Origin: Clostridia bacterium
GTDB lineage: Bacteria; Bacillota; Clostridia; UMGS1883
Direction of reading: 5' to 3'
DNA length: 45,469 nucleotides
Assembly (NCBI GenBank): GCA_017411435.1
Contig: JAFQQD010000058.1
Location: 1-45,469 of the forward strand
Part shown: positions 2,100 to 41,297 of the stretch, piece after piece
Numbering within the stretch: the stretch's first letter is position 1
Layout: the number at the start of each line of letters is the position of its first letter
Translations under genes and position numbers: made by a program
The notes under the pieces: model-generated
What the model saw: the letters and a program-made list of their open reading frames with translations, nothing else
What the model was told of the DNA's origin: nothing
Databases searched by the model: none

Positions 2100-2365
2100 A
2101 CCACGCCCTCCATTGCTCTCATGCCCTCAGCCTCCGCAGCCTCTCTCTCGAGCCTCTCCTGCTCACGCAACTCGACGAGGGTCTTCTTGTTTTCATTGTA
2201 CCTGGCGTATGCCTCGGAATACTCCTTGAACTCCTCCGGATAGTCCACGCTGAAGACCTTGCCGGTCTTTCCGCAGTGATTCTGTCTTTCGTCGCTCTTG
2301 GCCATTACAGCTCGGAGCTCGTTCTGCTCAATCTCAAGCTGCTTGATTCTGTTTGTTGTTTCCAT
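2096..2365 (-). CDS. Small coiled-coil protein of unknown function
   Basis: 89 residues, strongly charged and helical, with heptad-like Leu/Glu/Arg patterns. No signal peptide and no recognised domain. The start overlaps the 3' end of the reverse transcriptase gene by about 32 bases and its end overlaps the next gene by ATGA, so it is co-transcribed with both the retroelement and the lysis genes. Confidence 0.6.
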   Translation of the reverse strand: METTNRIKQLEIEQNELRAVMAKSDERQNHCGKTGKVFSVDYPEEFKEYSEAYARYNENKKTLVELREQERLEREAAEAEGMRAMEGVV

Positions 2366-3746
2366 AATACTGTGTGTTTAGAATGTTTGTGATCTGTCTG
2401 TGTCTCCTCCTGATCTTACGCTTCCGTATCTCCCTGTCCTTGTGCTTGCGGACGATTGTCGCTTTCAGCAGGTCATCGGAGAAATACAGATAACCGTCCC
2501 AGTACTGCATGATCTGGTCGGATATCCGCTTGCGTATGTTGTAGGACGCAAAGTGTTTCATCAGCCCGAAATAGGAGTTGATTATCGAAACGAATTTCTC
2601 AAGGTGACGCATCTTGCTGAAATGCCCCGAGGCATAGACCGTGTTGTAATAGTGGACCTTGCACTCGAGCTTTGCGACGGTGCGGTTGCTGATATACATT
2701 CTCCCGAACTTGACCACGCCTCCGAGCATCTTGATTCCGTGCTGGTACGGCTGTTCATGGTACTTGTGCGGGTGCATCCTCAGACCATGCTCCGCGATTT
2801 TCAGGCGGGTATGGAAGACAATCCGGTGCAGGTTGTCCTTGTCTCTCGATCCCAAGAAGAAGTCATCGACATAGTCCACGACCTTGACATCAGAGAACTG
2901 GAGAATGAACTTCACGATAGGTGCATTGACGAAGTTCGCGTCTGTCTGGCTCCAGAGGTTCCCGATAGCCAGACAGAGGAACCAGTCGAGGTTGAACGCG
3001 CTCTTGCTCGGCGCGAGATCAGCCCATTCGCATATAGGTGTCTTCCTGATACAGTGTTCGGTCGGCAGGTTGAATGTGGTTATCCTCATGAGGTACAGGA
3101 CCATGTCTTTGTCCGGCTCGTGGTAGTTCTCCATGACGAGCTCCACAAGAGCATCATAGAGCCTCCTCTTGTCTATCGACATGAAGAACGAGGCGATGTC
3201 GAACTTCGCGACGGTGCAGTCCTGAGTATATCCGCGAGAGAGCCTGTATATAGCATCACGGACAGCCATGAGAGCCGCGAGGTTTCCCTTGCCGACCCTG
3301 CATGAATACATTTCGTCCGGTATGCTTCCGCATCGGTTGAACAGGGGCTCAATCCTCATGACGAGCCAAGTCTGTATGACGCGGTCAGGAAAGTCAGCCG
3401 CTATGGCTTCCCTCAAGCACGGATATTTCAGCAGGAAGATAATGGACTTACCAGGCACATACTCGCAATAGTATGCGGCTCTGGCCAAGCGTAAGAGATT
3501 GTCCGCCTCGTTGATTCGGAAGCGGAGAGCGTTAGGAGTGTTGCGTTTGTTCTTATAGCAAACGCGAAGCGCGATACGCAAAGAGAGATAGAACTCCTCA
3601 AAGGTGTAGCAATTATCTCGAAAATCAGTGACGGGGCGCACGGAGTTACTGTTGTACTTGTTGTTGTTGTTCAGTTCACCGTTGTTGCCGTTGAAGATGA
3701 AGGCGTTGTTGCTACTGTACTCGCCAGATTTCGTTTCTGCAGACAT
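2334..3746 (-). CDS. DGR reverse transcriptase, reading frame includes the template repeat
   Basis: A 470-residue frame. Catalytic palm motifs are visible: FDIASFF (Asp183) and YVDD (292-295). The segment IGNLWSQ (261-267) has the SQ signature that separates DGR reverse transcriptases from group II intron enzymes. The enzyme copies the template RNA with errors at adenines and delivers the cDNA to the variable repeats. The frame opens at ATG 3746, and about residues 7-40 are encoded by the template repeat. No methionine follows until about residue 130, so the protein either starts before the template or uses an alternative start such as GTG at codon 37. The C-terminus is very basic. Confidence 0.93.
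   Translation of the reverse strand: MSAETKSGEYSSNNAFIFNGNNGELNNNNKYNSNSVRPVTDFRDNCYTFEEFYLSLRIALRVCYKNKRNTPNALRFRINEADNLLRLARAAYYCEYVPGKSIIFLLKYPCLREAIAADFPDRVIQTWLVMRIEPLFNRCGSIPDEMYSCRVGKGNLAALMAVRDAIYRLSRGYTQDCTVAKFDIASFFMSIDKRRLYDALVELVMENYHEPDKDMVLYLMRITTFNLPTEHCIRKTPICEWADLAPSKSAFNLDWFLCLAIGNLWSQTDANFVNAPIVKFILQFSDVKVVDYVDDFFLGSRDKDNLHRIVFHTRLKIAEHGLRMHPHKYHEQPYQHGIKMLGGVVKFGRMYISNRTVAKLECKVHYYNTVYASGHFSKMRHLEKFVSIINSYFGLMKHFASYNIRKRISDQIMQYWDGYLYFSDDLLKATIVRKHKDREIRKRKIRRRHRQITNILNTQYYGNNKQNQAA
3626..3726 (-). repeat. DGR template repeat (TR)
   Basis: 101 bp matching the two variable repeats at 4277-4377 and 29073-29170. Read on the minus strand it is rich in AAC codons, the usual way a template exposes adenines at codon positions 1 and 2. 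Every mismatch to either variable repeat is at a template adenine (13 for VR1, 7 for VR2). Beyond the conserved GTCACTG at its 3' end, the template continues with ATTTTCGA whereas both variable repeats continue with CTTTA. This is the IMH*/IMH difference that sets the direction of information flow. Confidence 0.95.
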
Positions 3747-3785: not shown

Positions 3786-4196
3786 TTATAGGCTCTCTGC
3801 CGGCTCCCTGTAGGAACCGACACTCTCACCAGCGCGTTGAAAATACTTTCGCCACCTCTTGCCGTGACCTCGTATCTCTCCGATATGCGTATCGCAAATC
3901 GCCTTTTGCTCTATTGACATCAAGCCCAGCTCAAGAGCAAGGCTCGTCAGGTCATCGATAATATCCACCTCCGTAAGACAATCGGTGACATACTCTGCAG
4001 CTTTCGTCTTGTTCATCTGATTGTTTGCCTTGACGATCAAAGCCCTCATTTTATTTGTGGCTTTGATGATGTCGTCGCCGACGATGAATTTATATGCCCT
4101 GTCGAAGTTCTTCACCACGCAACAGAGATAGACGGAGAACGGAAACGCCTCCTTGTAGATGTCAAGCTGCTCGAGCTTATTTTGATTCTTTGCCAT
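3786..4196 (-). CDS. avd: Avd-like DGR accessory protein
   Basis: About 136 residues, all helical, with a basic surface typical of Avd, the four-helix-bundle partner of DGR reverse transcriptases that binds template RNA. It lies between the variable-repeat gene and the template/RT, the usual place for avd. I took the internal methionine (MAKNQNKLEQ, 4196) as the start because the longer frame at 4238 begins inside the DGR hairpin. Assignment rests on position, size and helical character; no single motif is decisive. Confidence 0.75.
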   Translation of the reverse strand: MAKNQNKLEQLDIYKEAFPFSVYLCCVVKNFDRAYKFIVGDDIIKATNKMRALIVKANNQMNKTKAAEYVTDCLTEVDIIDDLTSLALELGLMSIEQKAICDTHIGEIRGHGKRWRKYFQRAGESVGSYREPAESL

Positions 4197-4216: not shown

Positions 4217-4245
4217 GCTCCGTGACTCTGGAGAGCACACGGAGC
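4217..4245. other. DGR hairpin/cruciform downstream of VR1
   Basis: GCTCCGTG (4217-4224) and CACGGAGC (4238-4245) form a perfect 8-bp stem, with an inner CTC/GAG stem closing a 4-base loop. It begins 31 bases beyond the end of VR1. There is no T run in either direction, so it is unlikely to be a terminator. Hairpins just after the IMH are known to be needed for efficient DGR retrohoming in the Bordetella phage system. Confidence 0.75.
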
Positions 4246-4268
4246 TAAACGAAAAACGATTTAACGGT

Positions 4269-5585
4269 TTATAAAGCAGTGACGGGGCGCACGGAGCTAC
4301 TGTCGTACTTGCTGCTGTTGCCCAGACCACCGCTGCTGCCGTTGAAGACGAAGGCGTTGCTGCTACTGCACTCGCCAATAGTCCAAGGATAGTAACCGTG
4401 TCCGTAGCAAGTCGGATATCCCATTTTGACGAGGGTATCATTTACGAGGTCTTCCTTTGTGTCAGCTGCGTTGAGCCTTCGGGTGTTAATCATGTGGTAC
4501 ATTTCCACAGGAGACGGCAAGTGCCAAGCTCCAGCTTCAAGCCCCGTCGTGAATCCCTCAACCGACACGCCGTAAGTGTGAGCCCTGTGAGCCGCCGGAT
4601 AGCGAGGCTCCTGTGCCCCTCTTACGATTGTGCCGAGGCGTGCAGCAAGCAACTCGGTGTACTCCTTTCCGTCGCGAAGCATTGTGCCGTAATTGGACGG
4701 GAATTGCGCCATATGCTCACCGTCAAGGTAGTCCTGATATGTAGCATATTTCGCACGGAGATCGGCGCAGAAATCGAGGTTTTCAAACGAATCCTTATTG
4801 ACGATTGTAGAAGATCCCAGAGGAATGTTCGATGTAGGAACTGTGCCATTCACTGAATAATACTCCACGAACTTCGCCAAGTGGAAGCCAGCAAAGTATG
4901 AGTTTGCGCCGTTCTTTCTGCGGACATACTCCGTCGTGCCGATATAGGCGTATGTGGTCTGATAGTCCACATCATCCTGAGCCGCAAGAACGGCTCCGGT
5001 CACTTCCGTGATCTTTGCCGAAATATACCAGTTGTGAGACAGTATGATTCCGTTGTCTGTGGCGGTTGCGGTCCACTTCCTGTTCGGCTCCTGTGCGGCG
5101 GTTGCAAATGCAGCCGTGAGCTTGTCTGCGATGCTCGCAAGAGTAGAGCCAGCAGCCCAGTTCACGCTTATCGCATCGGTATTGGCTCCGGTCGTAGTCT
5201 TAACCGTGAGCGATCCGGCTGCAGCATTCGCGATGCCCGACAGCATAGCCTCAAACGGATGTCCCCAACGCTCCGAGTACTGCGTGATAGACATACAGAG
5301 GAGCGTCGCTCCAAGTCGCTTGAATACCACTCCGACCGGAACGAGGGTCGCGGCCAGCTGTGCCTTGACCAGAGTACGAGCCTTGACGAATCTGATTCGC
5401 GCCTCCACCTTGTCAAATACGACAAGGTCGCCCTCGTATGCAGACTGCTTTTCCACGAGGCAGTTCACGCCGTCATATACTACAGCCTTGTTTTCATCAA
5501 TGTAGGAAACAGCACTCTCGCTCTTGAGGCGTGCTGCATCAGCGGCATAGTCCGCTTTCTTTGAGTATTTTGTTACCTGTGCCAT
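4269..5585 (-). CDS. DGR-diversified tail fibre/receptor-binding protein (VR1 target)
   Basis: 438 residues. The N-terminal half is a phage-type stalk domain; the C-terminal half has the WHLPSPVEMYHM segment and a closing region typical of C-type-lectin or DUF1566-like folds used as DGR targets. The last 33 residues are encoded by VR1. Template Asn codons have become Ser, Gly or Asp, and Tyr has become Cys at one site. It follows the alanine-rich fibre gene and precedes avd and RT. The natural reading is a tip adhesin whose receptor specificity is retuned by the retroelement. Confidence 0.88.
   Translation of the reverse strand: MAQVTKYSKKADYAADAARLKSESAVSYIDENKAVVYDGVNCLVEKQSAYEGDLVVFDKVEARIRFVKARTLVKAQLAATLVPVGVVFKRLGATLLCMSITQYSERWGHPFEAMLSGIANAAAGSLTVKTTTGANTDAISVNWAAGSTLASIADKLTAAFATAAQEPNRKWTATATDNGIILSHNWYISAKITEVTGAVLAAQDDVDYQTTYAYIGTTEYVRRKNGANSYFAGFHLAKFVEYYSVNGTVPTSNIPLGSSTIVNKDSFENLDFCADLRAKYATYQDYLDGEHMAQFPSNYGTMLRDGKEYTELLAARLGTIVRGAQEPRYPAAHRAHTYGVSVEGFTTGLEAGAWHLPSPVEMYHMINTRRLNAADTKEDLVNDTLVKMGYPTCYGHGYYPWTIGECSSSNAFVFNGSSGGLGNSSKYDSSSVRPVTAL
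4277..4377 (-). repeat. DGR variable repeat 1 (VR1)
   Basis: 101 bp aligned without gaps to the template repeat at 3626-3726, with 13 differences, all at template adenines (12 A-to-G, one A-to-T in coding sense). It forms the 3' end of the fibre gene, followed by the IMH and stop codon. The bias to A-to-G suggests few or recent rounds of mutagenesis, or selection. Confidence 0.95.
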
Positions 5586-29009: not shown

Positions 29010-29043
29010 CCTCCGGCAGACTCTGTCGAGCGACTGCCGGAGG
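29010..29043. other. DGR hairpin/cruciform downstream of VR2
   Basis: CCTCCGGCAG (29010-29019) and CTGCCGGAGG (29034-29043) form a perfect 10-bp stem, with an inner CTC/GAG closing a 4-base loop. It lies 29 bases beyond VR2. The stem sequence differs from the VR1 hairpin while the spacing and inner CTC-loop-GAG are kept, as expected if structure matters rather than sequence. Confidence 0.75.
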
Positions 29044-29052
29044 AACGGGGAA

Positions 29053-29520
29053 CTATTTAACGAATTGTAAAGCAGTGACGGGGCGCACGGAGTTACTGTG
29101 GTACTTGTTGTCGTAGTTCAGTACACCGTTGCTGCCGTTGAAGATGAAGGCGAGGTTGCTACTGTACTCGGGGTCTGGGTCCTCCTCGCAGGTCCAAATC
29201 CAGTTGTTATCCAGCCTTTCTCCGCCGATTAGCTCAAGGGCTTCATCGAGACCCTGAAACCTTGCGTCGTAGATGTCAAGACATTCGCGGCGAGTAGGAC
29301 ATCGGAATCCCTGCTCGTCAAAATCTTTCAAGCCGGCTGCCGCTTCCTGTGCCTCCTTGAACTCAAACCGTCCGGCAAGCTGATTCTTGTGAATCTTGAT
29401 TCCGGTGGTCTCGCTTGTCTGAATGATCACGAGCTGTGCGCTCTGTGGGTTCTCGACTTTCTTCCAGTCCTCAACTGCTACCAGTGTCTGGTCAGCAGGA
29501 TTTTCAATAAAAATTTTCAT
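29053..29520 (-). CDS. Second DGR target protein (VR2), small, in the early region
   Basis: 155 residues from ATG 29520 (MKIFIENPAD). Residues about 75-155 resemble a DUF1566/C-lectin-like domain: GFRCPTRRECLDIYD and NNWIWTCEED, ending in the VR-encoded segment (EYSSNLAFIFNG to VRPVTALQFVK). No signal peptide or membrane segment. It lies in the early operon next to an ASCH-like and a PcfJ-like gene, far from virion genes, so a cytoplasmic or non-virion variable protein is likely. Confidence 0.85.
   Translation of the reverse strand: MKIFIENPADQTLVAVEDWKKVENPQSAQLVIIQTSETTGIKIHKNQLAGRFEFKEAQEAAAGLKDFDEQGFRCPTRRECLDIYDARFQGLDEALELIGGERLDNNWIWTCEEDPDPEYSSNLAFIFNGSNGVLNYDNKYHSNSVRPVTALQFVK
29073..29170 (-). 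repeat. DGR variable repeat 2 (VR2)
   Basis: 98 bp aligned without gaps to the template; all 7 differences are at template adenines (changes to C, G and T all occur). It is followed by the same GTCACTGCTTTA as VR1, and similarity to VR1 (but not TR) continues for about 18 further bases. Confidence 0.95.
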
Positions 29521-29550
29521 CATGATTTGTTGATTAAATGGGTTAATGAA

Positions 29551-39628: not shown

Positions 39629-39901
39629 ATGCAGACAGAGGAAAGTCAGGCAATAATCAGACGCTTCTTTCAGGCGATTTACTACCTCAAGGACGAGAAG
39701 ATCATAAGGGGAAAGGCTACATTCGCGAAGAAATACCAGATCAACCGCCTCAACCTCTCAAAGCTCGAGAGAAACCACGCCTCGGACATCTTTCAGGTGG
39801 CATGGCTCGGCTACCTCGTCAAGGATTACGGAGTGTCATCCACTTGGCTGCTCACAGGACGGGGAACAGTAATGCCAGTAAAGCAAAAGAATTGCAAATA
39901 A
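39629..39901 (+). CDS. Small regulator-like protein
   Basis: 90 residues. The N-terminal region (ATFAKKYQINRLNLSKLERN) resembles a lambda-repressor-type helix-turn-helix, and the ending YGVSSTWLLTGRG is common in short phage regulators. The last gene of the rightward lysogenic cluster, convergent with integrase. Confidence 0.6.
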   Translation: MQTEESQAIIRRFFQAIYYLKDEKIIRGKATFAKKYQINRLNLSKLERNHASDIFQVAWLGYLVKDYGVSSTWLLTGRGTVMPVKQKNCK

Positions 39902-39923
39902 TGTCAAGAAATTGACAAAATCT

Positions 39924-39986
39924 GCAATTCTGGAACACTTTTCGGCAATTTTGGTACGCTTTCCGGCAATTCTGGACCGGAAACGG
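39924..39986. repeat. Three tandem 21-bp repeats
   Basis: Three head-to-tail units starting at 39924, 39945 and 39966, each opening GCAATTNTGG. Units one and two agree over most of their length; unit three diverges in its second half. The 21-bp period puts each copy on the same face of the helix. Located between the convergent regulator and integrase genes; probable protein-binding sites. Confidence 0.65.
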
Positions 39987-40002
39987 GAAATTTCGGAACA
40001 GA

Positions 40003-41157
40003 TCAAAGCCCCTCGATCTGCGGAATCTTCGAGACAGCCTCCTGCTTCTTCTTATCCATGAGCTTCGCGTAAATCTGCGTCGTCTGGATCTCCTTATGAC
40101 CCAGAAGCTTCTGGACGGTGTATATGTCAGCCCCCAAGTCCAGCATCAGCACCGCAAAGGTATGTCTCGCACAATGGAAGGAAATCTCCTTCATCACACC
40201 CGCACGCAACGCCCACATACGCAGCTCCGTGTTCATATTCGAGTTGTATCGGAAATTCCGGAAGACAAGCTCCTCCGGCTTGCCCCGCTGTCCCATGTAG
40301 CGGACAGCCTGGGCGTTGATGTCAAGATACTCCTGCGACTTGGTCTTCTTCTGCCGGAAGATGACCCTCGTGAACTCTCCCTGCTGCACTACATTCTGCC
40401 AGCGGAGCCTCATGATGTCGCACTTCCTCAATCCCGTGAGGCAGGAGAACAGGAACGCCTCCTTGAGAGCCGGATAACGGCACGGGGCGGCGGTCATCGC
40501 ACGCAGCTCCTCAATGGTCAGGTACTCGCGCTCGGTCTCCTCCTGTGGAAAGCCCGAAATGCCGTCCATTGGATTGATCGGGATGATATGCTTGCTGTGG
40601 GCGTGGTTCAGGCAGGCTCGGAGCTTGTTGAAGTATGAGACCTTGCTGTTCTGGGACAGAGGCTCGCGGACATTCAGCTCTCCGTCCTTCGTCTTCCTGT
40701 TCTGACATACCGCCCTCTTGTCAAGATAATGCTTGAACGCCTCGACCCATTCGGGCGTGACATCGCGAAAGGTCATCTTCCTGTTCGTGATGAAAATCTC
40801 GAGGTGCTGCAGGCATGAATACCAGTTGCCCCAGTTGCCCCTCGATTCTTTTGTGCCGAGCCTCTCTTCGCACATGTACCGGAAGTAGTCCAGAAAGATA
40901 GTGTCCTCCTTGTAAATCTTCTCGAACCCGAAGCGGTTGTTCTGGAGCTCGACGACCCTCTTGCTCCGGACAGCCTCGGCGAGTGCGAGTGTCTGCCTGT
41001 TCTTCTCCCTGTCCTCCCTTGTCTTCTCCGGAATCAGGTACATCTTGAGGAATTCATACGAACGGACGCCGTTGATGTAGACATCCAGAAAAAGCGACTC
41101 CCTGCCGCTTGCCATCCTGCGACGGCGAAGCCTTATCGGCTCTTTTGCTCTTGCCAT
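40003..41157 (-). CDS. int: Tyrosine integrase
   Basis: 384 residues. Arm-binding and SAM-like core-binding domains are followed by a catalytic domain with all six signature residues: Arg244 (TGLRK), Lys273 (QKKTKSQE), His328 and Arg331 (HCARH), His354 (LLGHKE) and the nucleophile Tyr363 (TQIYAK). It catalyses integration at the mnmE 3' end. The gene ends away from attR, with 143 bases of repeats between its start and the att core. Confidence 0.95.
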   Translation of the reverse strand: MARAKEPIRLRRRRMASGRESLFLDVYINGVRSYEFLKMYLIPEKTREDREKNRQTLALAEAVRSKRVVELQNNRFGFEKIYKEDTIFLDYFRYMCEERLGTKESRGNWGNWYSCLQHLEIFITNRKMTFRDVTPEWVEAFKHYLDKRAVCQNRKTKDGELNVREPLSQNSKVSYFNKLRACLNHAHSKHIIPINPMDGISGFPQEETEREYLTIEELRAMTAAPCRYPALKEAFLFSCLTGLRKCDIMRLRWQNVVQQGEFTRVIFRQKKTKSQEYLDINAQAVRYMGQRGKPEELVFRNFRYNSNMNTELRMWALRAGVMKEISFHCARHTFAVLMLDLGADIYTVQKLLGHKEIQTTQIYAKLMDKKKQEAVSKIPQIEGL

Positions 41158-41170
41158 GATTTGTTTCTTT

Positions 41171-41222
41171 TGTGACTATTTGCGTTTCCGGTCACAAAGT
41201 AACAACAAAATAGTCACAAATG
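41171..41222. repeat. Putative integrase arm-type sites, right end
   Basis: AATAGTCACAAATG at 41209-41222 is identical to 92-105. An inverted copy of AATAGTCACA is at 41171-41180, and a partial GTCACAAA is at 41191-41198. They lie between integrase and attR. Confidence 0.6.
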
Positions 41223-41226
41223 AAAA

Positions 41227-41280
41227 CAAAAGGAAGATAAAAGAAACACAAACTGACTGTGTTCTATTAGCTTCCTTTTG
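41227..41280. terminator. Nested inverted repeat downstream of mnmE
   Basis: CAAAAGGAAG (41227-41236)/CTTCCTTTTG (41271-41280) enclose AACACA (41245-41250)/TGTGTT (41258-41263). On the minus strand the inner stem is followed by TTTCTTTTATC, so the prophage may supply a terminator for mnmE in place of the original one. Confidence 0.5.
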
Positions 41281-41297
41281 CTCCGATTTGCTTAAAA

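Follow-up and report, generated by a model that had tools for sequence, protein, structure and literature searches.

Hairpins downstream of both VRs of a phage-borne DGR as very probable DNA-level target-recognition structures

How DGRs choose their targets and avoid their templates is only partly understood, and the rule that a hairpin marks the target was tested in a single phage. In Bordetella phage BPP-1, efficient homing depends on a hairpin or cruciform downstream of the VR (Guo et al. 2011, PMC3240598). Homing is lost when the stem is broken and recovered when it is restored, i.e. pairing matters and stem sequence does not, while both the sequence and the size of the loop matter (PMC3240598). 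Phage DGRs were described with 7-10 bp stems and GRNA loops at 4-34 bp from the VR (PMC3240598). Likewise, a 2026 reconstitution in E. coli required the stem-loop for full efficiency and suggests that it keeps the target open (PMC12875486).

The stretch of DNA analysed here (the window) is an entire 45-kb contig from a metagenome-assembled genome, probably a temperate phage given its terminase, tape-measure and integrase genes. The reverse transcriptase (RT) is of the DGR type, with matches to RVT_1 and phrog_1423 (E 5.9e-52), and Avd was recognized through phrog_3206, its Pfam bAvd score being under the cut-off (Table 1). TR/VR pairs differing at adenines only were found for both VR1 and VR2; in VR1, 14 of the 35 TR adenines are changed and nothing else, possibly with the IMH/IMH* divergence as the final mismatch. 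Exactly three copies of the IMH (CTCCGTGCGCCCCGTCACTG) are present in the window, one each in TR, VR1 and VR2. Target gene 1 is 53% identical to its homologue in the related locus L010, and target gene 2 has a weak Pfam Lcl_C match under the curated cut-off. The TR (window 3622-3746), in frame in the RT N-terminus, codes, like the VRs, for the C-type-lectin-like peptide SNNAFIFNGNNGELNNNNKYNSNSVRPV, an arrangement also seen in L006, L009 and L010; TRs overlapping the RT ORF define an already described DGR group (PMC3521204). In an Alistipes MAG contig (CALUNH010000034.1; L090:9653-11377), a 575-aa RT ORF opens with a complete target-like domain, 46% identical to window target 2, and the reading frame stays open across the TR and into the RT. 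The result is a reverse transcriptase fused to a target-like domain whose VR position acts as TR. Elsewhere in the window, two inverted repeats (18 nt, 94%; 29 nt, 79%) at 41164-41290, directly upstream of the integrase gene (40003-41157), are possibly operator or attachment-arm sites, and a possible attachment region lies at 39888-40000, beyond the integrase 3' end, where an inverted repeat of 20 nt (85%, 4-nt loop) precedes TTTCCGGCAATTCTGG-type direct repeats.

Table 1. Coordinates of the DGR features in the window.
Feature	Position	Strand	Remarks
DGR reverse transcriptase ORF	2334..3746	-	470 aa; motifs YVDD and IGNLWSQ
Template repeat (TR)	3622..3726	-	in frame within 5' part of RT ORF
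Avd accessory protein	3786..4196	-	phrog_3206, E 3.7e-20
VR1 target hairpin	4217..4245	-	8-bp stem GCTCCGTG/CACGGAGC
VR1 spacer, IMH to hairpin	4246..4276	-	31 nt; contains target-1 stop codon
Target gene 1	4269..5585	-	438 aa; VR1 encodes C-terminus
VR1	4273..4377	-	differs from TR at 14 positions, all TR adenines
IMH of VR1	4277..4296	-	identical in TR and VR2
VR2 target hairpin	29010..29043	-	10-bp stem CCTCCGGCAG/CTGCCGGAGG
VR2 spacer, IMH to hairpin	29044..29072	-	29 nt; contains target-2 stop codon
Target gene 2	29053..29523	-	156 aa; remote from DGR core
VR2	29069..29170	-	differs from TR at 8 positions, all TR adenines, and at 0 others

A first-pass annotation of this DNA had placed a hairpin beyond each VR, and both its coordinates and the distances of 31 and 29 nt from the IMH proved exact. 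The two hairpins lie past the stop codon of the respective target gene and end 17-20 nt ahead of the next ATG. On the minus strand, they read GCTCCGTG-TG-CTC-TCCA-GAG-T-CACGGAGC (VR1) and CCTCCGGCAG-TCG-CTC-GACA-GAG-T-CTGCCGGAGG (VR2). The inner CTC-N4-GAG cap reported for both is indeed present, its fuller form being a bulged GCTC-N4-GAGT mini-hairpin: in VR1, a 1-nt T bulge plus G.T (alternatively a TG/T internal loop) underlies the apical CTC-TCCA-GAG, and in VR2 a TC bulge underlies the apical GCTC-GACA-GAGT. Caps are identical at 11/13 positions and spacers at 22/29, therefore the entire 3' cassette is homologous between VR1 and VR2. The stems had been described as different yet perfectly paired, hence covarying. 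They do carry three two-sided pair changes and a paired 2-bp insertion in VR2, but they are not unrelated and have a common CTCCG core; the differences are genuine compensatory change, from two sites only. DNA-fold z-scores were -3.6 (VR1) and -5.1 (VR2) for the isolated hairpins, and -2.8 for either flank of 85-88 nt vs -0.4 for that of the TR, where DNA folding found no such hairpin, in agreement with the earlier statement that the template lacks one nearby. The idea that the stem GCTCCGTG copies the IMH (CTCCGTG) was dropped, as the window contains 16 copies of this 7-mer and one related target, L226, has the same stem and a different IMH.

For comparison, about 210 loci with related RTs were collected from viral contigs, genomes and phage records, TR/VR pairs were detected by script via adenine-specific differences, and 103 non-redundant VRs with distinct flanks formed the comparison set. 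Viral contigs scanned with the single RT protein gave no relatives, an exact-IMH search gave no matches, and the genomes of the family, order and class held no relative at the set cut-offs; relatives were reached through alignments of distant RTs. A strong stem (perfect, 8 bp or longer, 5 or more G/C, 5-85 nt downstream) was present at 48/103 VRs (47%) vs 5/103 TR flanks (5%), 95/1949 other ORF ends (4.9%) and 20/2060 random sites (1%), an enrichment of about tenfold over TR flanks and other ORF ends, and a looser criterion (7 bp, 4 G/C) gave 64/103 VRs vs 15/103. The median distance from VR to hairpin was 33 nt (7-bp stems). The mean DNA-fold z was lowest in VR flanks (-2.9), compared with -0.9 in TR flanks and -0.7 at ORF ends (VR vs TR flanks, Wilcoxon p 2e-11, with relatives that are not independent samples). 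Many VRs below the strong-stem threshold have shorter stems, e.g. TCCCCC-GTAA-GGGGGA or ACCGC-GAA-GCGGT, and a distant minority (e.g. L011, both VRs of L013, L026, L066, L087) shows no clear hairpin in the scanned range. With strong stems in 47% and few VRs devoid of any, the hairpin is common but not universal. Diversified targets without a hairpin had been named beforehand as evidence against a role in target recognition. This minority is nevertheless compatible with such a role because hairpin-less BPP-1 targets keep reduced, non-zero activity, and it agrees with the activity that stem mutants retain in BPP-1 and in E. coli. In many Bacteroidota DGRs, the spacer between IMH and hairpin in the VR 3' flanks is built of pyrimidine-rich CTTTAA/TTTAACT-like repeats.

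The nearest RTs by identity were those of L010 (58%), L090 (50%) and L170/L171/L172/L212 (49-51%); in the RT tree, which did not include L170, strong support unites the window, L010, L171, L172 and L212 in a single group. Two phages among the close relatives also carry a second, remote target resembling target 2; in L010's phage, this second target is L226. A hairpin is present at every one of the eight target sites examined in this group (window VR1 and VR2, L010 VR1, L226, L170, L171/L172, L212 and L236), with a spacer of 29-31 nt except in L236 (longer, about 36 nt). The L226 hairpin reads TCCGCTCCGTG-TTG-CTC-TACG-GAG-T-CACGGAGCGGA and that of L010 TCCGCGCGGCA-TT-GC-CGTA-GT-GC-TGCCGCGCGGA. 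The L170/L171/L212 type has GGCGCGG-CGGY with a bulge and a CCG/CGG or CCCCG/CGGGG tip, and L236 has CCCG-G-CCCGGT-TC-GCCCC-GGCGA-GGGGT-TG-ACCGGG-A-CGGG. The two-tier shape is found throughout the group, the mini-stem of L010 VR1 being reduced to two pairs. The exact CTC/GAG tip is restricted to 3/8 sites in two phages (window VR1 and VR2; L226) and absent from L010 VR1 and the L170/L171/L212 group. The first-pass annotation had proposed a conserved cap for this DGR and suggested testing related ones for it and for stem covariation: the cap is common to both window targets and L226, but it does not extend to the other relatives and was rejected as a family rule. Stem covariation was borne out in the window clade and in an independent one.

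In the window clade, the aligned hairpins of window VR1, VR2, L226 and L010 have Watson-Crick pairs in 40/40 stem cells and two-sided changes at five pairs, in an alignment made by hand with the stem in mind and thus biased towards the stem; L171 vs L212 adds one further C-G to T-A change. A cleaner test is offered by the independent clade, in which 11 hairpins with the tip GGC-GNNA-GCC align gap-free. The three tip-closing pairs are invariant and 5/5 outer pairs show two-sided changes, with 97.7% of 88 cells paired; as the hairpins were chosen for pairing (at least 7/8) and GGC closing pairs, this percentage and the three invariant pairs are partly built in, while the variety of pair types is not. 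The covariation score of this clade was 0.714 vs 0.161 when shuffled and at most 0.18 when slid.

Taken together, both hairpins are very probably cis-acting target-recognition structures of one DGR, i.e. DNA hairpins or cruciforms formed by an inverted repeat that lies about 30 nt past each VR's IMH. The Bordetella-type reading given to them in the first-pass annotation is supported by the association with VRs and not with the TR, the conserved distance, the compensatory changes and the Watson-Crick pairing. Chance inverted repeats can hardly account for them. Stems as good as that of VR1 do occur in 1.2% of random 85-mers of the window, i.e. about 1%, and such as that of VR2 in 0.13%, but the hairpins are found at 2/2 VRs, at equal distance, with a common tip and conserved in relatives, and the comparative data already refute chance. 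It is also very unlikely that the common cap is a relic of a VR 3' cassette copied between the targets and the hairpin has no role. The similarity of spacers and caps would agree with such copying. Divergence between the stems, however, consists of two-sided changes and a paired insertion, against unpaired changes in loops and spacers, and relatives at about 50-58% RT identity retain hairpins at the same distance.

We regard it as improbable that the hairpins are RNA elements, i.e. intrinsic terminators or mRNA stem-loops between the target gene and the next gene. In favour of this reading, each hairpin sits between a target stop and the next start (in the window, the ATG follows after 17-20 nt), a T run is seen behind many VR hairpins in other DGRs, and terminators are exploited by group IIC introns (PMC3240598). 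In the window, however, neither hairpin is followed by a T run, the VR1 hairpin is not among the terminator-like sites called around VR1, the VR2 flank as read gives no such site either, and an Rfam search gave no match; the terminator and Rfam-family readings were rejected accordingly. Moreover, the two VRs that the hairpins adjoin are separated by 25 kb and precede different genes, and the TR has no such hairpin behind it. The composition of the stems points the same way. In VR stems, 2.9% of pairs are G-T and 1.9% A-C; the terminator-like hairpins from these loci have 9.0% (p 2e-6 for the G-T difference) and 3.5%, respectively. VR stems therefore gain hardly any pairing from G-T: it is tolerated by terminators of these loci, but in VR stems it is hardly more frequent than A-C mismatches. 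Indirectly, this avoidance favours a DNA-level structure, since the opposite strand would carry A-C. Although the stems otherwise avoid G-T, the apical mini-stem has retained one such pair (G.T, sense strand) at its base, above the T bulge of 1-2 nt, in window VR1, window VR2, L226, L010 and L236; this pair would leave the two cruciform arms unequal.

Loops were sorted into GNNA, TCCA, 5-10 nt loops with TT, and 3-nt loops. On the RT tree, these classes require 16 changes vs at least 21 in 200 shuffles (mean 27), so loop class follows the RT tree, an exploratory result because the classes were defined after the loops were inspected. The tip is probably the part of the hairpin that is read by sequence. 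A tentative extension, possible rather than probable, is that it serves as a lineage-specific address, with the bulged mini-hairpin T(N)-G.T-CTC-N4-GAG replacing the GRNA tetraloop and being read by the cognate RT/Avd. Such reading would fit the loop classes following RT phylogeny and the common tip of both targets here. Each DGR lineage would then rewrite only targets with its own tip while the stems drift freely, and tip swaps between DGRs would redirect them.

For the DNA hairpins as recognition structures, we infer extrusion in vivo, recognition of the tip and an effect on homing. The inverted repeat probably extrudes in supercoiled or replicating DNA, and the extruded hairpin would either keep the adjacent IMH/VR open or recruit the RT-Avd-cDNA complex, after which A-mutagenised cDNA from the TR would replace the VR. 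The TR, devoid of a hairpin, would be spared from rewriting. For the basal stem, pairing would suffice, while the tip, in which GCTC-N4-GAGT sits on a T bulge of 1-2 nt, is probably shared by the two targets because they depend on a single RT/Avd. Our comparison supports the hairpin as a general DGR feature with true DNA-level compensatory changes. The lineage-specific tip types make target specificity directly testable and can aid in finding remote targets in genomes.

Hairpins of this kind were established in BPP-1 by Guo et al. (2011), and those of the window are therefore a variant of a known element. As in BPP-1, an inverted repeat downstream of VR and IMH forms a GC-rich stem of free sequence within the 7-10 bp range (8 and 10 bp), and the distances of 31 and 29 nt are within the published 4-34 bp. 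Unlike in BPP-1, the stems of the window continue into a bulge and a 3-4 bp mini-stem before the 4-nt loop (13-14 nt tip), so that a GRNA loop directly on the stem, as in BPP-1, is not seen; of the apical loops, GACA (VR2) fits GRNA, whereas TCCA (VR1) and TACG (L226) do not. A lineage-specific loop rule on a VR-associated hairpin is shared with the DUSEL4 nanoarchaeal DGR (PMC4372165), where a 3-nt GRA loop lies inside the target gene, in contrast to the intergenic, two-tier tips of the window. Likewise, group IIC introns depend on a DNA stem-loop for targeting (PMC3240598), but their target hairpins are terminators with T runs, which the window hairpins lack. The beta-hairpins described in the tentaclin paper belong to the protein and have no bearing here. 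No description of a two-tier tip was found in the open-access papers that were read; what is new is this mostly non-GRNA tip, conserved in the present DGR clade, together with the evidence that tip type follows RT lineage.
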